Assembly: GCF_030503435.1 (NCBI RefSeq)
Contig: NZ_JAUKPO010000001.1
Coordinates: 124,001 to 188,000 of the forward strand
DNA length: 64,000 nucleotides
From: Rhodocytophaga aerolata
Lineage (GTDB): Bacteria > Bacteroidota > Bacteroidia > Cytophagales > 172606-1
Reading direction: 5' to 3'
This document shows positions 1 through 29,816 of this stretch, piece by piece. Within the stretch, counting starts at the first letter, position 1. Every line of letters starts with the position of its first letter. The position numbers were made by a program, and so were the translations under genes. The notes below the pieces were generated by a model. That model searched no databases and had not been told where the DNA came from. It worked only from the letters and a program-made list of their open reading frames with translations.

Positions 1-376
1 TACCCGACTGGGCACCTTCAAAAAATCCGGAGCGGCGGATGTCTTCAAACAAGCGGTGCACATTTAGGGGGCTTTTATCTTTAATGCGCTGGCCAAACAT
101 TTTTACCAGATGATAAGTACCCGGTGTAGCATCTACTGCCTCTCCACAGCCCCAGATATTCTGGTTGGTATATATTTTCACAAACAAGCTATGGCCATTG
201 CGTATGTATCCACATTTAATATCCGTGATTTTCAGGTTAGAAGGCGCAGAGGACATAGGAGTTCTTTCAATAGCATTCTCTAAGCCCTGGCCAAAGCTGC
301 TACTGATCGCAGAAGCAGCCATTGCGGTGGCTAAAGCACTTTTTGTTAAAAAGGAACGGCGGTTATAATTAGTCAT
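1..376 (-). CDS. Tat-exported enolase-superfamily (mandelate racemase type) protein, N-terminal part
   Basis: The gene runs off the left edge of the window, so only about 125 N-terminal residues are visible. The ATG is at 374-376 and the protein begins MTNYNRRSFLTKSALATAMA, a twin-arginine pattern (RRSFL) followed by an Ala/Ser-rich hydrophobic stretch. After it comes a segment with the order seen in enolase-superfamily capping domains: LKITDIKCGYIRN, then 'NIWGCGEAVDATPGTYHLVK' and 'NVHRLFEDIRRSGFFEG'. Metal ligands and catalytic bases would lie in the missing part, so the substrate cannot be judged. It is the last visible gene of the minus-strand SusCD locus, 70 bases behind the RraA-like gene, and a sugar-acid dehydratase or lactonizing role is inferred from family and context. 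Superfamily membership is fairly sure; specificity is unknown. Confidence 0.75.
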   Translation of the reverse strand, partial: MTNYNRRSFLTKSALATAMAASAISSSFGQGLENAIERTPMSSAPSNLKITDIKCGYIRNGHSLFVKIYTNQNIWGCGEAVDATPGTYHLVKMFGQRIKDKSPLNVHRLFEDIRRSGFFEGAQSG

Positions 377-446
377 TGGGTATAAATTAAGGTCAAGGTT
401 AAGAATAAGTGTATAAAATAATGAAGACGATTTTCTGCAAAGCTGA

Positions 447-1391
447 TTACCAGGTGCGGGTTTTCAGCAGTTCCTGAATTTGTTCTTTAGGTACTGGCAG
501 TTCGTTAATATGGGCATTAAGCCAGGCAGAAAAGTCTTTCTCTATTTCTGGCGACCACCTGGTATCTATCTGGCCGGGTGTGTATTTTTGCTCGCGGAGC
601 CGCTGGTGCCCAAACATATCGCGTAACCTGACTACTTCTGACGTTTTTACTACCTGCTCTACCAAGTGAGGAGGAACAAAGGTAACGGCACCATCACGGC
701 CCAAGACTACATCCCCTGGCAATACCATTACTTTGCCAATACGGGTAGGCCGGTTGATGCCTACCAGTGTAGTATTCAGGTTGCCTTCCTGGTTATGGTG
801 CGATGGATGATAGCTGCGGAAGAAGGAAGTAAACGAGCCTAATTCTTTTAATCCGGCAATATCCCGTACGGCCCCTTCATACACAATGCCATTTCCGGTT
901 TTAGCATAAATAGAATTGCCCAGGTTATCGCCAATCGTTGGGCCATCTTCGTGCATACCAAACTGGTCTACTACATATACATCGCCTTTCACCAGCATAT
1001 CAATTGGCCATGAATTTTGAGATTTGATGCGGCCATCTTTGGTATGTCCTTTTTCATCGGTTACCCGGTGCACATCTGGCCGTCCTGGCATAAACGTAGC
1101 CGTCAGTGCCCTGCCTACCAGTACACTATCCGGATTGATGCATTGCCATCCTTCGGCATATTGGTATTTGTAGCCCTTGCCTTTCATGACGGCCCAGGCT
1201 TCTTCATGGGTTACTAATTTCATTCGTTTGATTAAATCATCCGGTACTTTGGGCCGGCCATCCGCAAACCGTTCGCCTTTCCACTCAGGTGTTAGAAAAA
1301 GCAGTTCTTCTTTGGATATTTGCTGGGCCGAAACAATAAAAGCTTGTATCAGCAGGAAAAAAAGTAAGCGTAAATGGATACTATAGTTCAT
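447..1391 (-). CDS. Exported RraA-family protein (HMG/CHA aldolase-like)
   Basis: The 314-residue protein belongs to the RraA / 4-hydroxy-4-methyl-2-oxoglutarate aldolase fold. The core is at about residues 150-240: GDNLGNSIYAKTGNGIVYEG, then GAVRDI, whose Arg-Asp pair corresponds to the substrate- and metal-binding RD of RraA-type aldolases, then a 'PGDVVLGRDGAVTFVPP' segment like the conserved C-terminal strand of the family. Known members cleave or decarboxylate oxo-acids such as oxaloacetate or HMG, or inhibit RNase E. Unlike cytosolic RraA (about 160 residues), it begins with a hydrophobic signal peptide ending near VSAQ, and has about 100 extra N-terminal and 70 extra C-terminal residues. 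It lies between two enolase-superfamily genes in the SusCD locus, so an aldolase-like step on a dehydrated sugar acid is plausible inference. Family is confident; reaction is not. Confidence 0.8.
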   Translation of the reverse strand: MNYSIHLRLLFFLLIQAFIVSAQQISKEELLFLTPEWKGERFADGRPKVPDDLIKRMKLVTHEEAWAVMKGKGYKYQYAEGWQCINPDSVLVGRALTATFMPGRPDVHRVTDEKGHTKDGRIKSQNSWPIDMLVKGDVYVVDQFGMHEDGPTIGDNLGNSIYAKTGNGIVYEGAVRDIAGLKELGSFTSFFRSYHPSHHNQEGNLNTTLVGINRPTRIGKVMVLPGDVVLGRDGAVTFVPPHLVEQVVKTSEVVRLRDMFGHQRLREQKYTPGQIDTRWSPEIEKDFSAWLNAHINELPVPKEQIQELLKTRTW

Positions 1392-1468
1392 GATAAGAAA
1401 GATTATTACGTAGGTATAGGTTGCTGTTCAATATCCTATTATAGATGCGTAGCATCTGATAAAAAATT

Positions 1469-2833
1469 CTATGGCCGGATGGCGGTGCCATTCCGTTTTC
1501 GTACCTGGGTCCAGTTGTTGAGTTGCTTATCAGGCAGAGGAAATTTGGCTGCCAGCTTTTCATTGATATCTACTCCCAGGCCTGGGGCTTCATTCACATA
1601 CATATAGCCATTTTTTACATAAGGGCTACCAGGGAATATTTCTTTTAAGGTATCCGAAAAATTTACAGACTCCTGAATACCAAAATTCCAGACAGCAAAA
1701 TCTATATGTGCATTGGCCGCATGGCCTACCGGAGAAACATCTCCTGGCCCATGCCAGGCAGTGAGTACATTATACCATTCGGCCAGGCGGGCTACTTTCA
1801 TGGCAGGAGTAATACCGCCAATCTGGGAAATATGAATGCGGATAAAATCGTATAGCCGCTGTGAAATAGGCTCCAGCCATTCATGCGGACTATTAAAAAG
1901 TTCTCCCATGGCTATGGGCACCGCTGTTTGCTGACGCAACAATTTAAAGTACCCAATGTTCTCCGGAGAAAAAGGATCTTCAATAAAAAATGGGCGGTAC
2001 GGTTCTAATGCTTTAATAACATTGATGGCCTCCATGGGCTGGATACGTTCATGAATGTCGTGCAGGATTTCCACATCATCGCCGCATTTTTTTCGAACTT
2101 CTTCAAACAACTTGGGCAATATGCGCAGGTATGGACGAACATCCATAAAGTTGTCGTCTTTGTGTCCAAAGCCGGCCTCTTTAAAATCCGGTTTTTGCGC
2201 CATATGTAAGGCTCCGTAGCCACCAGGCTGAATGCGTACATGCCGGAAACCCTGGTCCATAAATTTTTGCACATTATCCGCCACCTCTTCCGGCGATTTA
2301 CCGTCTGCATGTGCATAACAATCTATGCCAAAGCGGCATTTACCACCTAAAAGCTGATAGACCGGCATGTTGGCCCGTTTTCCTTTAATGTCCCACAGGG
2401 CCTGGTCTAAGCCACTTAGTGCATTATTTAACACAGGACCATTGCGCCAGTAGGAACTAACGTAGGTGGTTTGCCACATGTCTTCAATATTATCTACATC
2501 TTTTCCCTGGCAAAAGTCATTGAGGTAATCGTTAATGGCAGAAACGACCGTATGTGCCCGTTGCCGGAAAGTAGCACAACCCAGGCCATACAAACCAGGC
2601 TCGGTGGTTTCTACTTTTACTACAATCAGTTCAATACCATGCGGACAGGTGGTAATGGCCTTTACACTTTTGATTTTAATAGGCGGCATCCCTTTCAGAT
2701 ACGAATGGTTTACTGTGCCATAGCCCGGACTTGCCGAACCCAACATGCCTGATAAACCAGCCACTGAACCCAAGCCTATTTTTTTTAATACGTCACGGCG
2801 GTTTTGTTGCTTTGTTGATTCCGGATCAATCAT
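1469..2833 (-). CDS. Tat-exported ManD/RspA-like enolase-superfamily dehydratase
   Basis: The 454-residue protein resembles D-mannonate dehydratase ManD/RspA. Visible hallmarks, in order, are CYAHADG, the barrel motif LHDIHER (metal-ligand Asp and the His next to it), FFIEDP (second acidic ligand), PIAMGELFNS (third ligand), and 'AWHGPGDVSPVGHAANAHID' followed by NFGIQE, close to the ManD pattern HGATDLSP...NFGIQE. The C-terminus has PGLGVDINE, common to the superfamily. The start is placed at the ATG at 2831-2833 (MIDPES): the signal then reads QNRRDVLKKIGLGS, a twin-arginine pattern. An upstream in-frame ATG at 2884 would add 17 unconvincing residues. Most ManD enzymes are cytosolic, so export is the odd point. 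It lies 99 bases behind susD. Substrate is inferred to be a sugar acid; several ManD homologues have weak or different activities. Confidence 0.85.
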   Translation of the reverse strand: MIDPESTKQQNRRDVLKKIGLGSVAGLSGMLGSASPGYGTVNHSYLKGMPPIKIKSVKAITTCPHGIELIVVKVETTEPGLYGLGCATFRQRAHTVVSAINDYLNDFCQGKDVDNIEDMWQTTYVSSYWRNGPVLNNALSGLDQALWDIKGKRANMPVYQLLGGKCRFGIDCYAHADGKSPEEVADNVQKFMDQGFRHVRIQPGGYGALHMAQKPDFKEAGFGHKDDNFMDVRPYLRILPKLFEEVRKKCGDDVEILHDIHERIQPMEAINVIKALEPYRPFFIEDPFSPENIGYFKLLRQQTAVPIAMGELFNSPHEWLEPISQRLYDFIRIHISQIGGITPAMKVARLAEWYNVLTAWHGPGDVSPVGHAANAHIDFAVWNFGIQESVNFSDTLKEIFPGSPYVKNGYMYVNEAPGLGVDINEKLAAKFPLPDKQLNNWTQVRKRNGTAIRP

Positions 2834-2932
2834 GAATGATGTAGAAAGGTGTAAAATTAATAGAGGATGGATGCAACCGGCCATTTCTTACTTGCTATGT
2901 TCCGGTCACATCCATTAGTTTGTTTACTGCTG

Positions 2933-4453
2933 TTATTTATCCCACCATACACGGGTGTCTAATCTATCCAACCCTTGACGGCTAACTGCTTCCTGATAAT
3001 TACCAGAGTTTACTGAAAGTTCAGCATCCGGATAGGTAAGCCTGCGGATAAAATCTTCTGAATCAATGTCGTTGCGTAAAGGGTTGGGAGGTAAATTTGG
3101 AAAACCACTGCGGCGGAAATTGGCAAAGGCTTCAGGCCCATTCAAGAAAGAGGCAACCCAGTATTGGGTATTGATCTGTTCTAAAGCTTTGGCCGGGTCG
3201 AACGGATTTGCCGCCAGATACGCGTCTATGGAAGTAGCAGGAACGGCTGCATCAGCGTAAGCACTCAATTGTTCCATATGTGCTTTAATTCCATTGGTGT
3301 ATAAAGCGGCGGCATCTCCTGTTACCCATCCACGTACTACCGCTTCTGCCAGCAGCAATTGTGTTTGTGCATAGGTCACCAGGAAATTAGGTGCGTCATT
3401 TCTACCCATTCTGTTTCTGTCTAACTGGGAGAAATCATAAAAACTAGCCAGACCTTTGGCCGTAACAACCGAAGCGATTGAGGCATTATCGTAGCCCATA
3501 GGCATCCCTATTTGTACCGTAGTATCTCTGTTAATTCTGGCGGCTACCTGTTCTGCACCATTTTTTGCCCCCACATACCTCACCGCAATAGAAGCCAGGC
3601 GGGGATCTTTGGCTGCTTTTAAATACTTTACAAAGGTTTCTGTCAGGTAATAGTTATTGGCTTCAGTAGAGTTTAACGTGTTCCCTACGGCATTCATGAA
3701 AGCTGCTGTATGACGGATGAACGCATTATCTGCATTAGATTGCATGACGCCAGCTGCAGCGGCTTTGGCTGCGTATGATTGGGCTTTAGCAGCATCTGCT
3801 TTAGTCAGGCGCATAGCTGCCCGCAGTAGCAGAGAATAGCCCAAACGCCTCCATTTAGTAATATCTCCGCCATATAATGCATCCTGTGTTTCCAGAGCCT
3901 TAGCAGCATCCAGTCCGGCAGAAGCCTGATCCAGTTCCGTTAAGATAGTTTCATAAATATCCTGCTGTGCATCATAGGAAGGGGTTACTACATTATTTAA
4001 AAAACCCTGGCCAGCTTCCGTAAACGGAATGTCGCCGTAGGTGTCTGTTAAGATCATGCCGGCATTTGCATGGATAATCCTGGCCATATTGTACAAATTA
4101 GAGCGTGCAGGATTATCACGTGTCTTGGCTATCACATCGGCTGTGTTTTTCAACACGTTCCTGTAATAGTTTTCCCACAGGCCACGTGTTACCGGACGGT
4201 TATCTTCATTAAAATTTCCTCCGGCAATAACGCCTGAGTTCGGCGACACAATTTGCTGTACTATGGCTAATTCGTAGGGAAGCGTAGTGCCCGGAGGGGC
4301 TGTATTCACGATGGCTGTGTTCAGCGAAAACAATGGATTAATAGCGGTAGCCAGGTTTTTATTGGTATTTAATTCGTCAAACCCATTGTCACATCCTGCC
4401 AGCATCCCTAAGGCAGTACACAAGCCTAAGATATATTTAGTTGTTTTTCTCAT
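2933..4453 (-). CDS. SusD/RagB-type nutrient-binding outer-membrane lipoprotein
   Basis: The 506-residue protein is a SusD-like surface lipoprotein of the RagB/SusD-like_2 kind. The signal MRKTTKYILGLCTALGMLAG is followed by the lipobox Cys (LAGC) and then DNGFDELNTNKN, a typical mature start. Helical TPR-like SusD segments follow, for example the 'GDIPFTEAGQG' stretch near residue 150 and 'QLLLAEAVVRGW' near residue 360, which matches the LLxAEA motif of the family. The start at 4451-4453 puts the signal peptide at the N-terminus; an upstream in-frame ATG (4483) would add ten charged or polar residues ahead of it. It lies 60 bases downstream of susC, the invariant pairing, where it should cap the SusC barrel and bind substrate. 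The binding residues do not reveal the ligand. Confidence 0.93.
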   Translation of the reverse strand: MRKTTKYILGLCTALGMLAGCDNGFDELNTNKNLATAINPLFSLNTAIVNTAPPGTTLPYELAIVQQIVSPNSGVIAGGNFNEDNRPVTRGLWENYYRNVLKNTADVIAKTRDNPARSNLYNMARIIHANAGMILTDTYGDIPFTEAGQGFLNNVVTPSYDAQQDIYETILTELDQASAGLDAAKALETQDALYGGDITKWRRLGYSLLLRAAMRLTKADAAKAQSYAAKAAAAGVMQSNADNAFIRHTAAFMNAVGNTLNSTEANNYYLTETFVKYLKAAKDPRLASIAVRYVGAKNGAEQVAARINRDTTVQIGMPMGYDNASIASVVTAKGLASFYDFSQLDRNRMGRNDAPNFLVTYAQTQLLLAEAVVRGWVTGDAAALYTNGIKAHMEQLSAYADAAVPATSIDAYLAANPFDPAKALEQINTQYWVASFLNGPEAFANFRRSGFPNLPPNPLRNDIDSEDFIRRLTYPDAELSVNSGNYQEAVSRQGLDRLDTRVWWDK

Positions 4454-4513
4454 GGTTAATTCATTTAAATTATTGCAGACCAACTCTTCAGGTATAAATT
4501 ATCTGGTAGCCTA

Positions 4514-7500
4514 TTAAAATTTCACGTTCAGGTTAAAGCCCACACTGCGAGTAGTTGGCAGGCCAGAATGCTCCAAGCCAATCAGGTTATCAGAAGAAAA
4601 GCCAAAGGACTCGGGATCAATATTAGGCACCCATTTTTTAAGAATTGCTACGTTGTTGGCTACGGCATTTAACCGGACGCCCTTCACAAAGAAATTTTGT
4701 GGAAGCAGTTTTGTAAAATCATAGCCCAGTGTAACCTGACGAAGCTTCCAAAATCCGGCATTGTAGACAAATTCTCCTAACAGGTTGCTGGACCGTACAG
4801 TTTCATAAAAGGTTTGAACCGGTGTCTGAACTGCGTTTGTTTCTCCATTTGGATTTACCCCATCGCCTATTACATAGCCCTGTTCACGTCCCACCAGCGT
4901 ACCTTTATGCAGGCCATGCCGCCATGCGTTAAAGTTGGTAGAAGAAATCATTTTATGGCCCAGTTTAAAATCAATCAGGAAGGATAGGCTAATTCCTTTA
5001 TAATTGAACGTATTGGTAAAGCCTCCTACCCATTTTGGAATAGCGCTGCCAAAGGCGACCTGATTATCTGTGCGTATAGGACGTCCGGTAGTTGCATCAA
5101 AAACACGTTCACCATTTAAGGTTTTGTAGCCATAGGCATATAGCTGCCCGATTGGTTTTCCTACTTCCTGCCGCAGTTCGCCCTCAAAAATTCCCCTGCC
5201 CACCGTGATAATCGTATCGCCAGGGTTAGGTCCTAGTTTTAAGATTTTAGTTGTATTATAAGATCCATTGAAGGAAAAATCCCATTGGAAAGAAGCTGTT
5301 TTTACAGGAGTTACACTTAATAACATTTCAAGGCCACTGTTTTTACTTTCTCCCACATTGATCAGCCTACGCAGATAGCCGGAAGCATCTGATACTTGTA
5401 CCTGTACAATCTGGTCGGTTGTAAGCTTATCATAATACGATACATCTAATCCAATGCGGTTTTCAAAAAACCGGAGGTCCAGACCAAACTCCTTTTCGGC
5501 TACCCGCATAGGCTTTAGGGCAGGATTGGGAACTGTTTCCGCAGGAATATTTCCAAGCGGCAACGATGCTAATCCAGCCGTATTAGGGAACAAATTAGCA
5601 TTTATGTCATAGAAAAGAGCGTTGGAATACGGGCTTACATCCAGGTCACTGCCTACTTCCGCGTACCCTGCCCTGATCTTTCCAAATGATAGCCAGTTTG
5701 GAAGTCCGGCAAAGGCCTGGGAAAACACAAAGCTACCAGTAATAGAAGGATACAAGATACTCCGGTTAGCTGGAGATAAGGTAGAAAACCAGTCGTTACG
5801 GGCAGTCAGGTTTACAAACAATACATCATTATAGGAAACTTCCGCTGCCCCATATAAAGAGTTTACCTTTTTTTCAGTCAGGTCATAGAACGGATTTTTC
5901 TGCTGACCATTTCTTGCCGTATAGAGTCCCCGTACCACAAAATTTGTAACCCCTACACTGTTCTGGTCGGAACGCTGATACATCTGGTTTCCTCCAAAAG
6001 TGGCATCAATTCCGATCCTGCCAAAGCTACGGCTGGCCCCCAACAAGAAGTCGGCGTTGATTTCCCGGAAGCGGCGGGACTGCTGGGCATACTGCCCGTT
6101 CACAAAGCCTGCCGGAGGAGCGCCCAAAGAGGCCATTCCAGTGGGTATATTATAATCCTGGTCACGTGCAAAAAAATCTTGCCCGATTCTGCCTTGCAGG
6201 TATAACCAGTCAGTGAAATTGTACCGTGCTGTTATGTTACCAAAAACACGGTCGCGGCGGATGTTCTCAAACCGGTCGTAAGCAGCAAAATACGGATTTG
6301 TCCGGTTCCGGAACCTGGAATACACATATTCATCGCCATTGGCATCTTTCCGGTACCTCTCTAGTAAGTCTAAAGGCATGGAGTTAGCCAGGGTATAAAT
6401 CGTAGTGGGAGTACTCAAATCCTGATCGGCAATGGAAGGAGGATTTTTGTTGTATTCATTCGAGTAATTGATGTTGCCTGAAATGGTGAGTTTAGTCAGC
6501 ACATTTTGTGTAAAGCCCAGATTAATCGTTTTCCGGTTGAAATTCGAATTAGGCATAATACTCTTGGTATCCAAGTTAGAAAGAGAAAGGCTAAATCCCC
6601 CTTTTTCCCCGCCTGCAGAAAGGGTGACGGTGTTCGTCCAGGTATTACCTACTCTATAAAACTTTTTAATCCGGTCTCTTACGGGTTCATAAGGCACTTC
6701 TACGCCATCAAATAATACTTGTGTCATGCCTGGCTGGAAGCGTTCTCCAAAACTCCATACACCTGAAGTTGGGTTGGCTGCCGTTGGGCGTACGCCTCCT
6801 TCTCCTTGACCGTATTCATATTGAAAATCGGTAAAATCCAGAGGTGTATCTGTCGTAAAATTGGTATTGTATTCTACCCCAATGCCTTGCTGGGAACCTC
6901 TGCTTTTCGTGGTAATCATGATTACCCCATCTTTTGCCCGGGCTCCATACAAGGCTGCCGCCGGCCCGCCTTTCAGTACCGTCATCGATTCAATATCATC
7001 AGGATTTATACTGGATAGGCCATCTCCCCCATCTGATCTGGACGTGATACCACCGGCGCTGTTGTTATTATCAGAGCTATTGGGATTATACCCTTGATTT
7101 GGATTACTAATGGGTACGCCATTCACTACTATTAGCGGGCTATTTTGTCCACCGAATGAGGATTGGCCCCGGATACGGATTTTACTGGTTCCGGCAGGCC
7201 CCGTACCCAGCGAGGTAATATTTACACCTGCCATCTTGCCTTGCAGGGCATTCATGAAGTTGGGGGTACGGTTTACATTTATTTGTTCCGGCGTTACACT
7301 AGCCACAGCATAGCCTAATTTTTTAGTATCTTTCTTTATACCCAGTGCTGTTACCACTACTTCGCTCAACGATTTAATATCGGCTACCAAGGTAATATCA
7401 ATCACTGTGCGGTTATTAATTGCCACTTCTTCACTGGTATAGCCTATATAGGAAAAGACCAGTGAGCCATTGCCATCCGGTGCCGTAATACTATACTGAC

Positions 7501-8089
7501 CTTCTGCATTGGTTACGGCGCCTATAGAAGTTCCCTTTACCAGCACGTTTACTCCCGGCAGAGATTCTCCATTTTCCTGAGCTGTTACTTTCCCGGTTAT
7601 GGTAATAGCTGCCGGAACCTGCTTTAAGGATACCAGCTGCATAATTGAACTGGTAGCGGCTGCACCACCGCTGGTTTGTGGCAATTGCCTAATTTCAGAC
7701 ACTTTGGCACCGCGGCTCGCAGGAAAAATGATGTAGATGCTTTTTTCTACTTTCTTGAATTTTAATCCTAAGGGTTGCAGCAGCGCATCGAGTGATTTAT
7801 CGAAGTTTCCCTTAAAGTTTGCTTTTGCTTTTTCACTTACAAACAAATTTTGTACAACATCAGCGTCGTAATTGAAGCTTACCGAATACTGTGAAGAGAT
7901 TTCGGATAACACATTTTTCAGGGATACAGTGTTTTCTGAATTGCCTGGCAAGAGCGTACCCTGCATAGCCTGGCTGAAGGCCAGCTCCTGGGCGGGTGCA
8001 ATTGAAGGTAAACAGAGAAAACAAGCCCCCCAAAGTAGCCAGGCTAATTTCCGGCAAATTCTACTACAAGTGGTTACAGGTACTGTCAT
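4514..8089 (-). CDS. SusC/RagA TonB-dependent outer-membrane transporter with STN domain
   Basis: The 1191-residue protein is a SusC-type active transporter. In order: a signal peptide ending near IAPAQ; an STN (secretin/TonB short N-terminal) domain at about residues 50-120; a carboxypeptidase-D-like regulatory domain at about 165-240 (GKVTAQENGESLPGVNVLVK); the TonB plug from about 245 (SEVVVTALGIKK, GVNITSLG, IRIRGQSS, PLIVVNGVPI); and a long beta-barrel ending in the aromatic-rich VGFNLNVKF. The STN domain marks a signal-transducing receptor that contacts a FecR-type anti-sigma factor, and a fecR gene lies 65 bases upstream. SusD follows 60 bases downstream. The pair should import an oligosaccharide or sugar-acid ligand too large for porins. 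The protein looks complete; specificity cannot be read from it. Confidence 0.96.
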   Translation of the reverse strand: MTVPVTTCSRICRKLAWLLWGACFLCLPSIAPAQELAFSQAMQGTLLPGNSENTVSLKNVLSEISSQYSVSFNYDADVVQNLFVSEKAKANFKGNFDKSLDALLQPLGLKFKKVEKSIYIIFPASRGAKVSEIRQLPQTSGGAAATSSIMQLVSLKQVPAAITITGKVTAQENGESLPGVNVLVKGTSIGAVTNAEGQYSITAPDGNGSLVFSYIGYTSEEVAINNRTVIDITLVADIKSLSEVVVTALGIKKDTKKLGYAVASVTPEQINVNRTPNFMNALQGKMAGVNITSLGTGPAGTSKIRIRGQSSFGGQNSPLIVVNGVPISNPNQGYNPNSSDNNNSAGGITSRSDGGDGLSSINPDDIESMTVLKGGPAAALYGARAKDGVIMITTKSRGSQQGIGVEYNTNFTTDTPLDFTDFQYEYGQGEGGVRPTAANPTSGVWSFGERFQPGMTQVLFDGVEVPYEPVRDRIKKFYRVGNTWTNTVTLSAGGEKGGFSLSLSNLDTKSIMPNSNFNRKTINLGFTQNVLTKLTISGNINYSNEYNKNPPSIADQDLSTPTTIYTLANSMPLDLLERYRKDANGDEYVYSRFRNRTNPYFAAYDRFENIRRDRVFGNITARYNFTDWLYLQGRIGQDFFARDQDYNIPTGMASLGAPPAGFVNGQYAQQSRRFREINADFLLGASRSFGRIGIDATFGGNQMYQRSDQNSVGVTNFVVRGLYTARNGQQKNPFYDLTEKKVNSLYGAAEVSYNDVLFVNLTARNDWFSTLSPANRSILYPSITGSFVFSQAFAGLPNWLSFGKIRAGYAEVGSDLDVSPYSNALFYDINANLFPNTAGLASLPLGNIPAETVPNPALKPMRVAEKEFGLDLRFFENRIGLDVSYYDKLTTDQIVQVQVSDASGYLRRLINVGESKNSGLEMLLSVTPVKTASFQWDFSFNGSYNTTKILKLGPNPGDTIITVGRGIFEGELRQEVGKPIGQLYAYGYKTLNGERVFDATTGRPIRTDNQVAFGSAIPKWVGGFTNTFNYKGISLSFLIDFKLGHKMISSTNFNAWRHGLHKGTLVGREQGYVIGDGVNPNGETNAVQTPVQTFYETVRSSNLLGEFVYNAGFWKLRQVTLGYDFTKLLPQNFFVKGVRLNAVANNVAILKKWVPNIDPESFGFSSDNLIGLEHSGLPTTRSVGFNLNVKF

Positions 8090-8154
8090 AGATTTAAGGT
8101 TAAGGGTTTAGAATAGGGTTTAACTGCTTTCCCTACAGGTTAGCAGGCAATGAG

Positions 8155-9186
8155 TCACTCGGATTTTATAAGTATAGTCTGGTTGTTTTTCTTCATCTGA
8201 ATGTTCATAGACTGGCTAAGGATATCAAGGAGCAGGTTCATATCGTGGTTAGGTATTGCTCCTGTGAACCGCCGGTATTTCAAGGCTGGGTCGCTGAAAA
8301 CAACTTCTACCCCGTAGGTATCTTCCAGCACCTGGGCAATTTCGCGCAGAGATTTTTCATTGAAAATCAGTTTATGGTTCCGCCATGCACTATGCTCTTC
8401 CGGATTTACCTGCTTCTTCACATATACTTTTTCGTCAGCCGTAAACTCTACCAGGTCTTTGGGTTGCATAGTTATGGTATCTTGTGCATTGTTTACCGGC
8501 TGTAACTGTACTTTGCCAGTATTGAGCACAACCTGCACTTTACCCCGGCGGTTGTTTACATTGAAGGTGGTTCCCAGCACTTCCACATGCAATTGATCGG
8601 TATGTACGGTAAACTTAGCATGGCCCCACTCTGGTTTTTTCCGTACCTGGAAGAAAGCCTCCCCGCTAAGCCATACTTCCCGGATATGGCTCTTTGCCCA
8701 GTTAGTTGTGTAACGCAGTGTAGAGTTGGCATTCAGGGTTACGACAGAGCCATCGGGCAAGGTAACGATGCGTGTTTGGCCATAGGCTGTATGGATGCTG
8801 GTTGCCTGGCGTGTTTGATAAAGTACCACCACCGCTACAAGCAGTATACCTACCAAAACGGCTGCTTTCCAATACATCTGCTGCCGGAATAAATGGGTAA
8901 TCCGGGTATAGGCAGGTTTAGTAGGTTCGGGTATATGCTTTTGCCTCCTGATCTCCCGCAAAATACTGGCTTTTACCTCTTGCTGCTCCTGTATGGCTGG
9001 TTGTACTACATCAAATGACAAAAAGAGCACTAACTCTCTGGCATCCTCCAACGTGCTAATCTTCTCAGGATGCTGCTGCATAAACGCCTGCCAGAACTCA
9101 TAGCAAGGTTGATCAGGATTTTCTACCCATTTCCGGAAGTAAGGGTCACTGACAAAATCTTCTACGGTATAGGCAGAATAATCCAT
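8155..9186 (-). CDS. FecR-family anti-sigma factor
   Basis: The 343-residue inner-membrane protein has a cytoplasmic N-terminal region (about 1-105, with 'FVSDPYFRKWVENPDQ'), one membrane helix at about 106-123 (AAVLVGILLVAVVVL), a periplasmic FecR domain at about 130-230 ('TLPDGSVVTLNANSTLRY', 'EVWLSGEAFFQV', 'VLGTTFNVNN') and a C-terminal DUF4974 domain (about 270-340) that resembles STN. Proteins of this type hold an ECF sigma factor inactive until a ligand-loaded TonB receptor signals through its STN domain. The receptor gene lies 65 bases downstream, and the likely cognate sigma factor is at 11058-11636, separated from it by a histidine kinase gene. The family is secure; the pairing with that sigma factor is inferred from context. 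Confidence 0.93.
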   Translation of the reverse strand: MDYSAYTVEDFVSDPYFRKWVENPDQPCYEFWQAFMQQHPEKISTLEDARELVLFLSFDVVQPAIQEQQEVKASILREIRRQKHIPEPTKPAYTRITHLFRQQMYWKAAVLVGILLVAVVVLYQTRQATSIHTAYGQTRIVTLPDGSVVTLNANSTLRYTTNWAKSHIREVWLSGEAFFQVRKKPEWGHAKFTVHTDQLHVEVLGTTFNVNNRRGKVQVVLNTGKVQLQPVNNAQDTITMQPKDLVEFTADEKVYVKKQVNPEEHSAWRNHKLIFNEKSLREIAQVLEDTYGVEVVFSDPALKYRRFTGAIPNHDMNLLLDILSQSMNIQMKKNNQTILIKSE

Positions 9187-9401
9187 GGATTGATGCTAAA
9201 GCTCTTTGTCTCTTTTGTATGCATAAGAGAAAGCTTTATAGCATTTACCCTCAAAAAATTATAAGTATTTTTATAGGCCGGATGGCTTACTGGCCATTGC
9301 TGAATGAATTGCAACTATCTGCAACAAAATGAACAGGAAAGATTTATGTTGGACTAGCCCTATTTTATGAAACCCTCTTGGTAGAAGGTATACAAGGCAG
9401 A

Positions 9402-10895
9402 TTATGCCAAGTTTGGAATACTTAATTGCAAGGATGTGCCTTCTCCGGCTACACTGCTGATAGTGATAGTGCCGTTTAGGCGTTCGATGGTTTGTTTAAC
9501 AATATACAGCCCTAAGCCGGAACCTTCCGACCGCTCTGTTCCTCTGACAAACATCTCAAACACATGGTCTAGATATTCTTGTTTTATGCCTATGCCGTTA
9601 TCCTGAAAAGTGATGTTTGCCTGCTGTCCGGTAACGATGATATCAATTCTCAAGTAAGGTTGGCTGGCATAGGGATTCATGTATTTGATGGCATTGGAAA
9701 GTATATTATTAAACACAATTTCCATTCGCAAACTGTCTTGTTTAAAAGGTGGCCCACTTATCTGGATAAATTTCTCTACTTTGTCATAGTCTTTAATGAA
9801 ATGTAGCCCCTGTAAGCACTGGCTGATCAGCTCCTGGAAATTAATGAATACAGGTTTGCTATCTATGCGGTTAATTTTTGAGAAGTTAAGCATTGATTTT
9901 ACAAAGTCATCCAGTTTGTTTACCCGGTTCTCTATAAAATCCAGATGGCTTCTTACCTGCTCAACGTCAGTTTCATTTTTTATCAGAGAAAGCAATCCCA
10001 GGATAGAAACCAAAGGCGAACGCAGGTCGTGTGAGGTTTTATACACAATCTGGTCCAGTTCAAAATTACGCTCTTTCAGCTCATGAATGCTTCTTTTTAA
10101 TTCTTCCTGATGATCGAGCAGCATGCCTTCCTGTATCTGGAGTTCGTTATTCTGGTTTTCAAGTTTGGTATTTAATAGTTTAAGTTTTTCTTCCTCTATT
10201 ACTCTGTCTGTAATGTCTGTAAAAAAGATGGCCACCCCATCCTGCAAAGGAAAAATCCGGTTTTCGAACCACTTGTTATAAGGAGCATAATATTCTTTAA
10301 GCGTAATATGCTTTTTTTCCTTTACCGCTTTATAGTACGCCTCATAAAATGGTTGCCCGATCCCTTCCGGAAACTCCGTCCATATATGTTTGCCAATGAG
10401 GTATTCCTGGGTGCGGTTGAAGATGGCAGCTGCCTTTTTATTAACATAGGTGTAACGCCAGCTGGAATCCAGGGCTACAAATGCATCGGCCATACTCTCT
10501 AGTACATCCTGAAATTGAATGTAGGTTTTACTGGACAGCTTATGCAGCTGGGCCTGCAGTTGGATTTCTTTAAACATCACTATTCCGCCATCGGCGTACA
10601 ACAGCGGAAAATAGGTGATCTCAAAAAACTCGTATGTCTGGTTATGCTGGAAATTGATGGTACTGATAGTAGAGCTGTTTCCCTGAAGGACATCATAGAA
10701 GAAAGTATTAAAATTCTCCTGAAAAAGGACTGGCATACAGCTATCGGTTACCTTACAGCCTACCACATCCTTAGCAGGTAACTGAAAAAACTGCTCCATC
10801 TTGTTATTCCAGGCAGTTACCTGAAAATCTGTATCAAACGCAAGTATGCCCTCGGGAGCACTGTTAATTAAAAGTTGATTTATTTCCAGATTCAT
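9402..10895 (-). CDS. Soluble PAS-domain sensor histidine kinase
   Basis: The 497-residue protein contains two PAS domains (about residues 5-115 and 125-240), a coiled coil (about 240-285), a HisKA dimerisation helix with the H-box TSHDLRSPL (phospho-acceptor His289), and a HATPase_c domain with an N-box (FNNILSNAIKYMN), G1 (DNGIGIK) and G2 (GSGLGLYI). No membrane segment is visible, so it should sense a cytoplasmic signal. No response regulator is adjacent; the output partner must be elsewhere. It sits on the same strand between the ECF sigma gene and the fecR gene, an uncommon place for a histidine kinase. Gaps of 162 and 215 bases on either side leave room for separate promoters. The kinase call is certain; its role in the locus is not known. 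Confidence 0.93.
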   Translation of the reverse strand: MNLEINQLLINSAPEGILAFDTDFQVTAWNNKMEQFFQLPAKDVVGCKVTDSCMPVLFQENFNTFFYDVLQGNSSTISTINFQHNQTYEFFEITYFPLLYADGGIVMFKEIQLQAQLHKLSSKTYIQFQDVLESMADAFVALDSSWRYTYVNKKAAAIFNRTQEYLIGKHIWTEFPEGIGQPFYEAYYKAVKEKKHITLKEYYAPYNKWFENRIFPLQDGVAIFFTDITDRVIEEEKLKLLNTKLENQNNELQIQEGMLLDHQEELKRSIHELKERNFELDQIVYKTSHDLRSPLVSILGLLSLIKNETDVEQVRSHLDFIENRVNKLDDFVKSMLNFSKINRIDSKPVFINFQELISQCLQGLHFIKDYDKVEKFIQISGPPFKQDSLRMEIVFNNILSNAIKYMNPYASQPYLRIDIIVTGQQANITFQDNGIGIKQEYLDHVFEMFVRGTERSEGSGLGLYIVKQTIERLNGTITISSVAGEGTSLQLSIPNLA

Positions 10896-11057
10896 ACCTT
10901 TCTAGGAATAGCTGGTTTACATACTAGTCTACACCTATACAAGGTAAAAAATTTAACCTGCTAACCTACAGTTACTGGCTGGTTACTTCATAAAGCGGGA
11001 ATACCTTATAGAAAAATACTTCTTAGATGAGGCGCTGTAGAGAACAGGCAGGCCTAA

Positions 11058-11636
11058 TTAGATGGTGGCCAGTTTGCGGATACTTCCCTTTAATACGTCC
11101 AGGGCGCGGTAAATAAGGGTACGGGCATACTTTACTTCCTTCATAGAAAGTAATTCGGCTATGTGTTCGTAATCCATGTTTTCATAAAAGCGTAAAAACA
11201 CCGCCTCTTTTTGCCTTTTGGTTAACGAGTCAAAAGCCTGCTGCAAACGTTCCTGGTTTTCTTTAGATATCTGGCTGGTAATCAGCAGGAATTCATGCGA
11301 AAAAGTTACTTCAAAATGGTACTCTTCATCGGGTTCCTGGCTATGGATATATTTTGTTTGCCGGCTTAGTTCTTTTATTAATCTTCTCCGCAAACAGGTA
11401 AACAAGTAGTATTTTACTGAAGTAACTGTACTTAGTCCGGATCTTTTATGCCATAGCTCTACAAACACATTCTGTATACAATCTTTCACCAAGGCTTTAT
11501 CCTGGCAGATACGCATGCCATAATTATACAGCTTTGGAAAATATTGGTCATAAAGGTGCTCAAAAGCAGCTTCGCTGCCATTTTTCAGGGCGAGCCATGT
11601 CAGGGCATCTTCTTTGGAGGAATGGTTTGTATGCAT
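11058..11636 (-). CDS. FecI-type ECF RNA polymerase sigma factor
   Basis: The 192-residue protein has the two ECF sigma regions. Region 2 is at about residues 20-90 (FEHLYDQYFPKLYNYGMRI, CIQNVFVELWHKR, YYLFTCLRRRLI) and region 4 at about 125-185 (LTKRQKEAVFLRFYENMDYE, then IAELLSMKEVKYARTLIYRA). It is the first gene of the minus-strand SusCD locus and the natural partner of the FecR protein at 8155-9186. When released it would direct RNA polymerase to the susC promoter. The ATG at 11634-11636 has no Shine-Dalgarno sequence, as is usual here. Family is certain; the regulon is inferred from position. Confidence 0.93.
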   Translation of the reverse strand: MHTNHSSKEDALTWLALKNGSEAAFEHLYDQYFPKLYNYGMRICQDKALVKDCIQNVFVELWHKRSGLSTVTSVKYYLFTCLRRRLIKELSRQTKYIHSQEPDEEYHFEVTFSHEFLLITSQISKENQERLQQAFDSLTKRQKEAVFLRFYENMDYEHIAELLSMKEVKYARTLIYRALDVLKGSIRKLATI

Positions 11637-13380: not shown

Positions 13381-14757
13381 ATGATTGACCGAACGCAGGG
13401 TTCTGCAGAGCCTATACCAGAAAGCATACTACACAAAAAGCAATTTGGCACCGATTTTATATGGGGAGTTTCCACAGCGGCCTATCAGGTAGAAGGAGCC
13501 TACCAGACAGATGGTAAAGGACTCTCTATCTGGGATGTTTTCAGTAATAAAAAAGGCAATACCTATCTTAACCAGCATGGCAACACCGCCTGCAATTTTT
13601 ATCACTGCTACCAGGACGACCTGCAGCTTATGCGGGCCCTACATATTGCTAACTTCCGCTTCTCCATTGCCTGGTCAAGGATAATGCCTGGCGGTGTGCA
13701 TCCTGTTAACCCTAAAGGAATAGATTTCTATCAATACCTGATTGACCACTGTCTGGAGTTAGGCATTGAACCATGGGTAACGCTCTATCACTGGGATTTG
13801 CCGCAGGCTCTGGAGCTAAAAGGCGGATGGACAAACCGGGATGTAGTAAATTGGTTTAGCGAATATGTAGAGGTTTGCATCAAACATTTTGGTGACCGGG
13901 TAAAGCACTGGATGGTATTGAATGAACCTATGGTATTTACCGGGGCAGGGCATTTCCTGGGAATTCATGCACCAGGCAGACGATGGATGAAAAATTTTAT
14001 TCCGGCGGTGCATCATGCTACGCTTTGCCAGGCAGCAGGTGCCCGCATACTGAAAGAGTGGCAGCCCAAAGCACAGGTAGGTACTACCTTTTCTGCATCC
14101 TACATAGAACCTCACCGCAACACTGAAAAAGACCAGAATGCCGCCATCCGGATAGATGCCTTGCTGAACCGCCTGTTTCTGGAACCTGCGCTTGGCCTGG
14201 GATACCCTGTAAAAGAGCTACCCTTTCTGCAACGGATAGAAAAATACATGAAACCTGGCGATGAAAAGTTGCTCTCCTTTGATTTTGATTTTATTGGCCT
14301 GCAAGTATACACCCGTGAAATCGTATCGCATACCTGGCTTATGCCCTTCATCCAGGCCGATCTTGTGAAAGCTACTAAACGGAGTGTACCTACTACAGTA
14401 ATGAACTGGGAAGTGTATCCGGAATCTATCTACCAGATGCTGAAACAATATGCCAGATATGGTTTGAAAAAAATTATTGTAACTGAAAATGGCGCTGCTT
14501 TTACGGATGTAGTCCAGGGTGGCCAGGTACATGACAAACAAAGACTTAACTATTTACAAGATCACATTCGCCAGGTCCTCTGGGCTAAACAAGAAGGTGT
14601 GCCGGTTGACGGTTATTTTGTGTGGACCTTTACCGATAATTTTGAATGGGCTATGGGATATCATCCAAGATTCGGCCTGGTGTATGTAGATTTTCCTACA
14701 CAACAGCGTATTATTAAATCCTCAGGGTACTGGTATAGAGATTTTTTGAAAAGTTAA
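13381..14757 (+). CDS. Glycoside hydrolase family 1 beta-glucosidase
   Basis: The 458-residue protein is a full-length GH1 enzyme. It opens with FGTDFIWGVSTAAYQVEGAY, the N-terminal GH1 signature. The acid/base glutamate is in VLNEPMVF (Glu182) and the nucleophile in IVTENGAAF (Glu369). FRFSIAWSRIMPGG, TLYHWDLPQAL and the aglycone-side 'DNFEWAMGYHPRFGLVYVDF' complete the pattern. It should hydrolyse beta-linked glucosides or galactosides such as cellobiose with retention of configuration. No signal peptide is visible, so it acts in the cytoplasm on imported disaccharides. It follows the glycosyltransferase by 11 bases. No truncation or missing catalytic residue is seen. The exact sugar specificity is open. 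Confidence 0.96.
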   Translation: MIDRTQGSAEPIPESILHKKQFGTDFIWGVSTAAYQVEGAYQTDGKGLSIWDVFSNKKGNTYLNQHGNTACNFYHCYQDDLQLMRALHIANFRFSIAWSRIMPGGVHPVNPKGIDFYQYLIDHCLELGIEPWVTLYHWDLPQALELKGGWTNRDVVNWFSEYVEVCIKHFGDRVKHWMVLNEPMVFTGAGHFLGIHAPGRRWMKNFIPAVHHATLCQAAGARILKEWQPKAQVGTTFSASYIEPHRNTEKDQNAAIRIDALLNRLFLEPALGLGYPVKELPFLQRIEKYMKPGDEKLLSFDFDFIGLQVYTREIVSHTWLMPFIQADLVKATKRSVPTTVMNWEVYPESIYQMLKQYARYGLKKIIVTENGAAFTDVVQGGQVHDKQRLNYLQDHIRQVLWAKQEGVPVDGYFVWTFTDNFEWAMGYHPRFGLVYVDFPTQQRIIKSSGYWYRDFLKS

Positions 14758-28232: not shown

Positions 28233-29816
28233 TTACAATAGTATTGCCTTTGAGCTTGCTTCATTGCCTGCCAAGTCTTTGGCTTTTACTATGAACTTAC
28301 TTCCTGATTTTGTAGTAGCGGCAACTGGTAGTATAAACTGGGTAAGCGAGGTAAAGCCAATCCGTTTACCATTCTGGTAAATATCATAACCTAACAATTT
28401 TCCATTATCTGTAGATTTTTGCCATTGCAGCAACTGGCCATTAGCTACCTTTTTAACTTGCACATTGGCTGGTGCAGCGGGAGGCGTTTTATCTGGCCGT
28501 AAGCGTTGCAGGCAATTCATCAGCGAGCGGCTTTCGTGGTAGCAGGCTTTCCAGGCATGTCCTTTGGCCGCAGTCTTCCGGTCGGGCTCTTTGTCTATAC
28601 CACCATCGTACCATCCGCCATGGGTTTTATCAAGCATATATTGCTGCACATAATCCCATTGCTTCTTAAACTTCTCCATATACTGGTGTTTGTCGTTCGG
28701 GTAGGTATCGGCCATTAAAAGTAATGTATTCAATGCTTCTGCCTGTGTCCACCAGTTTTTGGCATCGTGCACAATGGTAATTTTGTCTTGCCCTTTCAGG
28801 TAATATCCCCGGTCGTAGAAGCCTCCCGCTTTTTCATCCCATCCGTTTTCCAGTGCATGATCTACCATTTTTTTAGTGATCCGGACAGTTTTTTCATCGT
28901 GCTTTAACCCTAAAATATGGGAAGCTTCCAGCATCAGGTATGCTGTTTCTACATCGTGGCCGAACGAAACATGGTCTAACCCATAGTTGGCTTTACGGGC
29001 AGTTTCAGAAGAGTCGCGGTAAGAAACTGGCTTCCAGTCAGGCGTTAGAAACAGGGTCAGATACCCTTTGTCTGTTACAATAGTGTCGCGGATCAGGGTA
29101 AGCATTTCCTGAAGGCGTTCCCGTACCAGTTCATCCGGCCATACACTATATAATTCTGCAAACGCTTCCAGCAAGTGAATAGAACTATTCTGGTCTTTAT
29201 AGCCCACTTCTTTATTGTTGGCAGAAGGTGTAAGCACAGGCTTTCCTTCCATACTTAAATGTTGAAAATATCCTTTTTTTACAGGGTCGTGGCTGTGTTT
29301 CTCCAGCCAGGCGAAAGCTTGTTTGGCCAGGTTCAGGGCGGTGGTGTCACCGGTGGTCTGATAGTAGGCAGCCAGGGCATAAATGCCAAACGCATTGCCA
29401 TAAGCTGTTTTCAGTTCATCCATGCGGGGCTTGCCATCCCGGCTTACCCAGGTATAAAAACCTCCGTTTTTTTTATCCCACATGGTATTTTTCAGGAATT
29501 CGTATCCATGCCTGGCAGCTTTAAGGTAAACCGGATTTTGGGGATATAGCTGCGCAGCTTTGGATGGTGTCCAGGTGTGGCGTGCCTGGGTTACAATCAT
29601 TTTATCCTGCGGGCCCGTAAGTTTCCAGTCGTAAGTGAAGCTACTTAAAAATCCACCCTGCTCCTCGTCTATTGTGCGGGGAAAAAACTTCGTTAATAAA
29701 TCCTCTTGCAGGGATTTCTCCATTTGCCTGGCAATTTCCTGCTTTTCGTCAGGAGTGGATGGCAGAAATGCTGTTGAAAAAAATGCCAGTAAGATGAGCG
29801 GAAAACGAATGAGCAT
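28233..29816 (-). CDS. Exported AGE-family epimerase/isomerase with C-terminal Fn3-like domain
   Basis: The 527-residue protein carries an N-terminal signal peptide (IRFPLILLAFFSTAFLPS), an (alpha/alpha)6-barrel of the N-acylglucosamine 2-epimerase / cellobiose 2-epimerase family at about residues 25-430, and a C-terminal beta-sandwich resembling fibronectin type III at about 440-525 ('PPAAPANVQVKKVANGQLLQ', then GYDIYQNGKRIGFT). Barrel landmarks include QARHTWTPSKAA, GGFYTWVSRDGK, GLDHVSFGHDVETAYLMLEA and NWWTQAEALNTLLLM, matching the family's conserved Arg/His residues (RHTW, SFGHD, WWxQAE). Typical AGE enzymes are about 400 residues and cytosolic; export and the extra domain are unusual. 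It may isomerise a sugar outside the cytoplasm. It lies 139 bases downstream of a Tat-exported enolase-superfamily gene, with a terminator hairpin between. Family is sure; substrate is open. Confidence 0.88.
   Translation of the reverse strand: MLIRFPLILLAFFSTAFLPSTPDEKQEIARQMEKSLQEDLLTKFFPRTIDEEQGGFLSSFTYDWKLTGPQDKMIVTQARHTWTPSKAAQLYPQNPVYLKAARHGYEFLKNTMWDKKNGGFYTWVSRDGKPRMDELKTAYGNAFGIYALAAYYQTTGDTTALNLAKQAFAWLEKHSHDPVKKGYFQHLSMEGKPVLTPSANNKEVGYKDQNSSIHLLEAFAELYSVWPDELVRERLQEMLTLIRDTIVTDKGYLTLFLTPDWKPVSYRDSSETARKANYGLDHVSFGHDVETAYLMLEASHILGLKHDEKTVRITKKMVDHALENGWDEKAGGFYDRGYYLKGQDKITIVHDAKNWWTQAEALNTLLLMADTYPNDKHQYMEKFKKQWDYVQQYMLDKTHGGWYDGGIDKEPDRKTAAKGHAWKACYHESRSLMNCLQRLRPDKTPPAAPANVQVKKVANGQLLQWQKSTDNGKLLGYDIYQNGKRIGFTSLTQFILPVAATTKSGSKFIVKAKDLAGNEASSKAILL

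Follow-up and report, generated by a model that had tools for sequence, protein, structure and literature searches.

A SusCD locus of Rhodocytophaga aerolata with predicted exported sugar-acid enzymes in place of glycoside hydrolases

The window analysed here is a stretch of 64,000 nucleotides from the draft genome of Rhodocytophaga aerolata (9.07 Mb, 202 contigs), corresponding to positions 124001-188000 of contig NZ_JAUKPO010000001.1 (C111). Its first 11,636 positions carry a SusCD locus, composed of genes for an extracytoplasmic function (ECF) sigma factor, a PAS histidine kinase, a FecR anti-sigma factor, a SusC transporter, a SusD lipoprotein, a ManD-like enzyme of the enolase superfamily, an RraA-like protein (RraA1) and a second enolase-superfamily enzyme (ENS2). 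This series, all on the minus strand, had been listed in a first-pass annotation made from the letters of the window, and profile searches agree with it gene by gene. The SusC protein, there described as an STN-SusC, scores far above the SusC/RagA cut-off; the STN match of its N-terminal extension is weak (E=0.014) and lies below the Pfam cut-off. The SusC and SusD genes adjoin each other with a gap of 60 bp, the arrangement of a SusCD locus. Left of the window the genome continues with the rest of ENS2, a BASS/PanS-like transporter (bile acid:sodium symporter family) and two more predicted exported RraA-like proteins (RraA3 and RraA2), giving three RraA paralogues within one locus. Intergenic gaps from FecR to RraA2 range from 48 to 173 bp. 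Past RraA2 are found genes for an RDD membrane protein, an M16 peptidase, an acyltransferase, GatC, a TPR protein, an ABC ATPase, an inositol phosphatase, a patatin and an aromatic amino acid hydroxylase, among others, with no visible link to carbohydrate breakdown.

No glycoside hydrolase (GH) or polysaccharide lyase (PL) was detected in the gene run with Pfam and NCBIfam profiles, so that the carbohydrate-active enzymes (CAZymes) of a polysaccharide utilisation locus (PUL) are missing, nor was any found with Pfam in the open reading frames (ORFs) of the 15 kb left of RraA2, one 115-aa antisense ORF excepted. The first-pass annotation had seen no such gene up to its left edge, and the same holds for the stretch scanned beyond it. 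An ordinary PUL cut by the window edge is rejected, because the genome continues with ENS2, the transporter and two RraA genes, and then with unrelated genes. Coordinates of all features are given in Table 1.

Table 1. Features of the locus and its surroundings (window positions, or contig positions where preceded by C111).
Feature	Position	Strand	Evidence or remark
ECF-type sigma factor	11058..11636	-	Pfam Sigma70_r2 42.4 bits, Sigma70_r4_2 34.6 bits
PAS histidine kinase, between sigma and FecR	9402..10895	-	Pfam PAS_4, HisKA, HATPase_c
FecR anti-sigma factor	8155..9186	-	Pfam FecR and FecR_C
SusC/RagA TonB-dependent transporter, N-terminal extension	4514..8089	-	TIGR04056 633 bits (cut-off 368); CarbopepD_reg_2, Plug
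SusD lipoprotein, SusD-like_2 family	2933..4453	-	PF12771 276.5 bits
ManD-like MR_MLE enzyme, Tat-type, 471 aa	1469..2884	-	NCBIfam NF043051 399.6 bits
RraA1, Sec-type, RraA/HMG-CHA-aldolase-like	447..1391	-	PF03737 60.3 bits
ENS2, N-terminal part, Tat-type, galactonate-dehydratase-like	2..376	-	cut by window edge
ENS2, complete, 427 aa	C111:123093-124376	-	genome sequence left of window
BASS/PanS-like transporter	C111:121843-122982	-	beyond window; nearest PanS, 248.5 bits (cut-off 400)
RraA3, predicted exported RraA paralogue	C111:120803-121729	-	beyond window
RraA2, predicted exported RraA paralogue	C111:119682-120629	-	beyond window
ENS3, third Tat-type enolase-superfamily protein	29955..31427	-	Pfam MR_MLE_C; more than 25 kb from SusD
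GlcNAc 2-epimerase (AGE) family protein, adjoining ENS3	28233..29816	-	PF07221 134.8 bits
GH1 glycosidase	13381..14757	+	divergent from sigma; right of the interval, behind a glycosyltransferase-like gene

The enzymes of the locus carry N-terminal export signals, called here by motif and hydropathy and not by a trained predictor. Twin-arginine translocation (Tat) motifs precede a hydrophobic stretch in the ManD-like protein (QNRRDVLKK) and in ENS2 (NRRSFLTK), and Sec-type N-termini are found in RraA1, RraA2 and RraA3. These signals are conserved in relatives: the Tat motif is present in 9/9 ManD-like proteins (own copy included) and in 74/75 ENS2 and 30/30 ENS3 homologues of at least 380 aa, and a hydrophobic N-terminal segment in 78/79 RraA1 and 30/31 RraA2 and RraA3 proteins, the anchor motif not having been found in the two misses. 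The genome itself provides controls. Of its eight enolase-superfamily genes, four encode proteins with the Tat motif (ManD-like, ENS2, the ENS3 of the window and an ENS3 on contig C132) and four without, and the single RraA gene outside the locus, out of four in the genome, lacks a signal as judged by eye. TatC is present, and with motif and translocase both encoded the ManD-like protein and ENS2 are predicted Tat substrates. The export proposed in the first-pass annotation is thus supported by signals that recur in relatives and are absent from these same-genome controls. A role of the locus copies as RNase E regulators, the function after which RraA was named, is thought unlikely because they bear Sec-type signals.

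The ManD-like protein matches ManD-family structures down to E=4.4e-143, the best chains in the Protein Data Bank (PDB) being 4ihc, 3t6c and 3tw9, and its residues 54-471 align to 4ihc and 3t6c. Seven active-site positions (an R/Y pair, D-x-H, E, E and H) are kept in 9/9 sequences, own copy included. ENS2 aligns to galactonate-dehydratase-like structures, with 2qq6 as the best PDB match, and its D244, H246, E270, E296, D319 and H346 are conserved in 76/76 sequences, own copy included; these correspond to the D-x-H acid, three carboxylate metal ligands and the D-H base dyad. Fragments shorter than 380 aa for the enolase-superfamily proteins and 250 aa for RraA were dropped before residues were counted. 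ENS3 has an invariant histidine at the base position (31/31). AGE-family genes, as found next to ENS3 in the window, adjoin the module in the relatives L039 and L082 as well.

In RraA1 the residues D155-X20-R176-D177 are kept in 80/80 sequences, own copy included. D-X20-R-D is the motif of RraA-type class II pyruvate aldolases, an activity predicted for RraA1. In the Pseudomonas HMG/CHA (4-hydroxy-4-methyl-2-oxoglutarate/4-carboxy-4-hydroxy-2-oxoadipate) aldolase R123 is reported to stabilise the pyruvate enolate, and D124 and E199 to bind the metal (PMC5065237). The AlphaFold model of RraA1 (mean predicted confidence, pLDDT, 88.7) matches RraAS2 (5x15, TM-score 0.90 by target) and the aldolase 3noj (0.68). 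The PF03737 profile spans residues 73-231 of 314, leaving conserved extra parts at both termini.

A scan of a genome collection with the three RraA proteins returned at least 568 confirmed relatives, of which the best 80 loci were analysed. These belong to Spirosoma, Runella, Pontibacter, Chryseolinea, Algoriphagus, Chitinophaga, Niastella, Mucilaginibacter, Lewinella, Flavobacteriaceae and others, and since they were chosen by RraA similarity the presence of RraA is by construction. Synteny among relatives, named in the first-pass annotation as a check on its reading, is conserved: in 74/79 cases ENS2 directly follows RraA1 on the same strand, the exceptions being three at contig ends, one with a convergent ENS2 and one without ENS2. 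Among the 80 loci ENS2 is present in 75, SusC in 35, SusD in 31, BASS in 32, ENS3 in 27 and two or more RraA genes in 27; for the 52 loci with both 10 kb flanks the figures are 52, 32, 26, 25, 21 and 22, respectively. SusC was counted at an identity of 40% or more over an alignment of at least 400 aa or with a match at a contig edge, and SusD at 36% or more over at least 300 aa. Spread of RraA1 by plasmids was not borne out, a tblastn search of 72,556 plasmid records giving no match at E<=1e-20.

SusC and SusD occur together in 29 of the 80 loci, which contain 23 other interior ORFs. Twenty of these could be assigned, and all are sugar-acid genes or AraC regulators: AraC (4), FGGY kinase (4), and two each of gluconolactonase-like, GarL, GntP, UxuA-like, GarR and glucarate dehydratase genes. 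The remaining three are a DUF4440 protein, a weak DUF34 match and an ORF with no match; none of the 23 is a GH or PL. Over all 80 loci, best hits in the neighbourhood include gluconokinase-like FGGY genes with AraC (14), IlvD-type L-arabinonate-dehydratase-like genes (8), alpha-ketoglutaric semialdehyde (KGSA) dehydrogenase-like genes (7), GntP (6), FAH-family genes (5), GarL (3), and GarR and glucarate dehydratase (2), numbers which are lower bounds because the simple longest-ORF caller picks antisense frames in GC-rich contigs. One example is a place represented twice (L037 and L123), where the caller misses ENS2 and BASS genes that were recovered by homology search. Each accessory gene takes its label from its best blastp hit (E<=1e-8) in a set of proteins that had themselves been run against Pfam or NCBIfam.

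A sample of 118 genomes of the order was used to determine co-occurrence (E limits 1e-130 for ManD-like, 1e-60 for RraA, 1e-90 for SusD and for ENS2, and 1e-80 for BASS). ManD-like genes were found in 6 genomes, RraA relatives in 20, the SusD subfamily in 17, ENS2 in 13 and BASS in 23. RraA is present in all 13 genomes with ENS2 (2.2 expected), in 16 of 17 with the SusD subfamily (2.9 expected) and in 17 of 23 with BASS; the hypergeometric p-values ignore relatedness and stay below 1e-9 without the own family. The SusD genome lacking RraA (G069, 75% complete) has a ManD-like gene beside SusD. In the 17 genomes SusD occupies 25 places, two of them on contigs shorter than 6 kb, and at 17 of the 23 informative places the neighbours are of sugar-acid type. 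The partners are RraA, ENS or BASS genes at seven places (own locus included), a ManD-like gene at five, four of which have a pyrroloquinoline quinone (PQQ) dehydrogenase in the stretch, a glucarate operon with GarL and glucarate dehydratase at three, two of them with GntP and GarR, an FGGY gluconokinase-like gene with a 6-phosphogluconate dehydrogenase above its cut-off at one, and a GMC oxidoreductase with gluconate 2-dehydrogenase subunit 3 at one. The content of the glucarate operons suggests that SusCD pairs of this branch may take up aldarates across the outer membrane. In the glucarate places (L140, L142 and L144) GarL and glucarate dehydratase lie behind the SusCD pair, with GntP, GarR and a UxuA-like gene in L142 and L144; GarR scores above its cut-off in L142.

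A genome of the same genus (G004) carries the matching locus with SusC, SusD, RraA1, ENS2, BASS, RraA3 and RraA2, and with sigma and FecR as neighbours (L104). The PAS kinase is missing there, as is the ManD-like gene, which lies elsewhere in G004 (L105) in a SusCD run of its own with a PQQ dehydrogenase. In the order sample five other genomes contain seven ManD-like copies, and for six of these a PQQ dehydrogenase is encoded within the same stretch of 15-16 kb; at G069 it is in pieces, and in the seventh stretch, L121, none was seen. Because the ManD-like gene sits elsewhere in G004, and with a PQQ dehydrogenase in relatives, the locus of the window looks like a merger of two modules. A similar combination without a PQQ hit is found in one locus of the collection (L066), and the R. 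aerolata genome has four PQQ-dehydrogenase relatives elsewhere. In another genome (G024, L115) genes for a lactonase and a glucose/sorbosone-dehydrogenase-cytochrome protein come next after BASS and RraA2. Three stretches (L105:6078-7064, L109:12917-13936 and L121:82-1002) encode a protein of 306-339 aa along with the ManD-like gene, and in L105 and L109 along with the PQQ dehydrogenase too. The L105 and L109 copies have no Pfam match and share 56% identity; possibly they represent a new family of the pathway.

With moderate confidence we read the whole as a sugar-acid utilisation locus whose enzymes would dehydrate aldonates, and probably also cleave them, in the periplasm. SusC and SusD would import aldonate-type sugar acids through the outer membrane, and the ECF sigma factor and FecR would most likely tie this uptake to transcription. 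Once in the periplasm, the aldonate would be turned into a 2-keto-3-deoxy acid by the ManD-like enzyme and ENS2, predicted Tat substrates that retain the conserved residues of dehydratases. The RraA-like proteins with their Sec-type signals, for which motif and fold point to metal-dependent pyruvate aldolases, would then cleave it to pyruvate and an aldehyde, and the BASS/PanS-like sodium symporter, to judge from family resemblance, may transport the keto acid across the inner membrane. Prior oxidation of the sugar by a PQQ or GMC dehydrogenase could supply the aldonate in some relatives. The extracytoplasmic pathway on oxidised sugars proposed in the first-pass annotation gains support from the conserved signals and the largely sugar-acid neighbours. 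Gene content, signal motifs, catalytic residues, fold, synteny and neighbours are observed; from them we infer substrate, compartment, order of reactions and the aldolase and transport steps.

A number of observations weigh against this interpretation. The ManD-like protein scores 399.6 bits, below the NCBIfam equivalog cut-off of 550, and is therefore named ManD-like only; the Tat motif and the likeness to ManD given in the first-pass annotation both stand. ENS2 reaches 254.7 bits vs a galactonate dehydratase equivalog cut-off of 311 (NCBIfam), and neither RraA nor the transporter reaches any NCBIfam equivalog cut-off. In ENS3 the D-x-H acid is replaced by D-H in 31/31 sequences, and its chemistry may differ from that of known dehydratases. 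The motif aspartate is a serine in the RraA3 of the locus and in 4/8 RraA3 proteins, and an alanine or serine in 5/25 RraA2, therefore not every RraA paralogue is the same enzyme. The SusC and SusD pair of the present branch is lacking in the stretch examined in 51/80 loci, 6/23 informative SusD places are without a sugar-acid neighbour, and the ManD-like gene is not part of the G004 locus. GHs occur in the flanks of relatives (GH67 in 7/80 loci, GH3 in 3/80 and GH43 in L094), and the glucarate place L142 has a GH32 gene at its edge. Besides this GH32, one other CAZyme-type gene was seen at the SusD places, a sialate-esterase-type gene some 1 kb past SusC in L145, which belongs to the six without sugar-acid neighbour. 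Both the flanks of the 80 loci and the stretches around the SusD places were scanned for part of the GH families. RraA proteins lacking the motif aspartate (S or A) are located beside other RraA proteins in L009:16803-17729 (RraA3), L016, L088 and L111. This arrangement is suggestive of mixed oligomers or helper subunits.

The alternative that survives best, though we consider it rather unlikely, is a pathway only partly periplasmic, in which the 2-keto-3-deoxy acid is imported by BASS and degraded in the cytoplasm by a kinase and 2-keto-3-deoxy-6-phosphogluconate (KDPG) aldolase or by a Weimberg-type route, while RraA would serve otherwise, for instance as tautomerase, decarboxylase or scaffold. 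Two KDPG-aldolase homologues are encoded elsewhere in the genome, a further point against periplasmic cleavage which makes a cytoplasmic route possible. It would also suit the loss of the motif aspartate in some RraA paralogues, the fact that several relatives have IlvD-type, KGSA-dehydrogenase-like, FAH-family, GntP and FGGY genes close to the module, and the nearest named transporter, PanS, which carries pantoate-type acids. Yet the motif of RraA1 is kept without exception, its gene nearly always adjoins ENS2, and the 29 SusCD loci, with their 20 assigned interior genes, show neither a 2-keto-3-deoxygluconate kinase nor a KDPG aldolase in these positions.

It is improbable in our view that the locus is an accessory to polysaccharide use, processing oxidised or uronic ends released by GHs coded elsewhere, for example from glucuronoxylan or from cellulose cut by lytic polysaccharide monooxygenases. 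What speaks for it are the GH67 and GH3 genes in relatives mentioned above, the GH1 gene of the window, and Spirosoma-type loci in which a GH67 alpha-glucuronidase, UxuA and a major facilitator superfamily (MFS) transporter are found near RraA1-ENS2. Against this, the interior ORFs of the SusCD loci include no GH or PL, and SusCD pairs of this branch belong to gluconate- and glucarate-type operons as well. The GH1 gene is divergent from the locus. When it was compared with 1504 ORFs from 121 related stretches (the 80 loci of the collection plus 41 genome stretches, the own-genome stretches L132-L138 left out), no homologue reached E<=1e-10, the best value being 0.026, and RraA1 as control gave 132 matches; the GH1 gene is therefore rejected as a member of the locus. 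Six Spirosoma loci (L015, L019, L020, L021, L025 and L036) have RraA1-ENS2 beside glutaminase-A-like genes and UxuA, five of them also have GH67, and none has the SusCD pair of the present branch, pointing to a glucuronate-linked variant.

That the enzymes act on other hydroxy or keto acids, such as lignin-derived compounds or products of aromatic meta-cleavage, is very improbable. The fold matches of RraA1 do have an aromatic-pathway enzyme, 3noj, as their closest characterised aldolase, and the other fold is common to mandelate racemase and muconate enzymes, but the 20 assigned interior genes include none of an aromatic pathway, the neighbours are sugar-acid genes, and ENS2 and the ManD-like protein carry the residue sets of galactonate and mannonate dehydratases.

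If the enzymes of the sugar-acid locus are periplasmic, as we favour, carbon substrates would be dehydrated and split by aldol cleavage beyond the cytoplasmic membrane, and a family named after an RNase regulator would have exported members with a metabolic role. Enzymes of kinds usually intracellular appear to be exported here, and the core set recurs in many relatives. A wider proposal, less likely than not and put forward tentatively, is a complete extracytoplasmic, non-phosphorylative Entner-Doudoroff-like pathway in much of Bacteroidota, with oxidation by PQQ or GMC dehydrogenases, a lactonase, Tat-exported dehydratases, cleavage by RraA and import by BASS of only the pyruvate-type keto acid. 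Neither sugar transport nor ATP-dependent activation would in that case be needed for carbon to enter the cell. The usual interpretation of a SusCD locus is that it serves polysaccharides; as the partners of the present branch are largely of sugar-acid type, gluconate- or glucarate-type compounds could be assigned to some SusCD pairs without CAZymes.

Every protein family of the locus is already known, as is sugar-acid catabolism by enolase-superfamily enzymes (PMC10444878). In SAR202 bacteria enolase-superfamily enzymes are likewise expanded for the use of sugars and sugar acids by a non-phosphorylative scheme, which differs in relying on NAD(P) dehydrogenases and COG3836 aldolases; in the available part of that paper the term RraA is absent and no exported enzymes are mentioned (PMC10444878). 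PUL 8 of Maribacter is also a Bacteroidota SusCD locus near sugar-acid enzymes, including a mannonate dehydratase, but has GHs, and its sugar-acid enzymes are called cytoplasmic by the authors in the available text (PMC11036162). Among the literature matches listed, titles and the beginnings of abstracts describe no exported RraA and no exported enolase-superfamily dehydratase in a SusCD locus. With the D-mannonate/D-gluconate dehydratases of the ManD subgroup (NF043051; 4ihc, 3t6c, 3tw9) the ManD-like enzyme shares sequence and active-site positions, and differs in its Tat motif, its score under the equivalog cut-off and the PQQ dehydrogenase nearby in relatives. ENS2 has the D-x-H, E, E, D, H set of galactonate dehydratase (PRK14017; PDB 2qq6) and is set apart by its Tat motif and lower score. 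RraA1 shares the fold and D-X20-R-D with the RraA/HMG-CHA aldolase/oxaloacetate decarboxylase family (PF03737; 3noj, 5x15), and is set apart by its Sec-type signal, its extra termini and the presence of three paralogues in one locus. As in SusCD PULs with ECF sigma and FecR, the genes for SusC, SusD, sigma and FecR form one run on the same strand, while in place of GHs or lyases the locus has dehydratase, aldolase-like and BASS genes. We regard this CAZyme-free locus, with dehydratases and RraA proteins that are both predicted to be exported, as a new form of SusCD utilisation locus.

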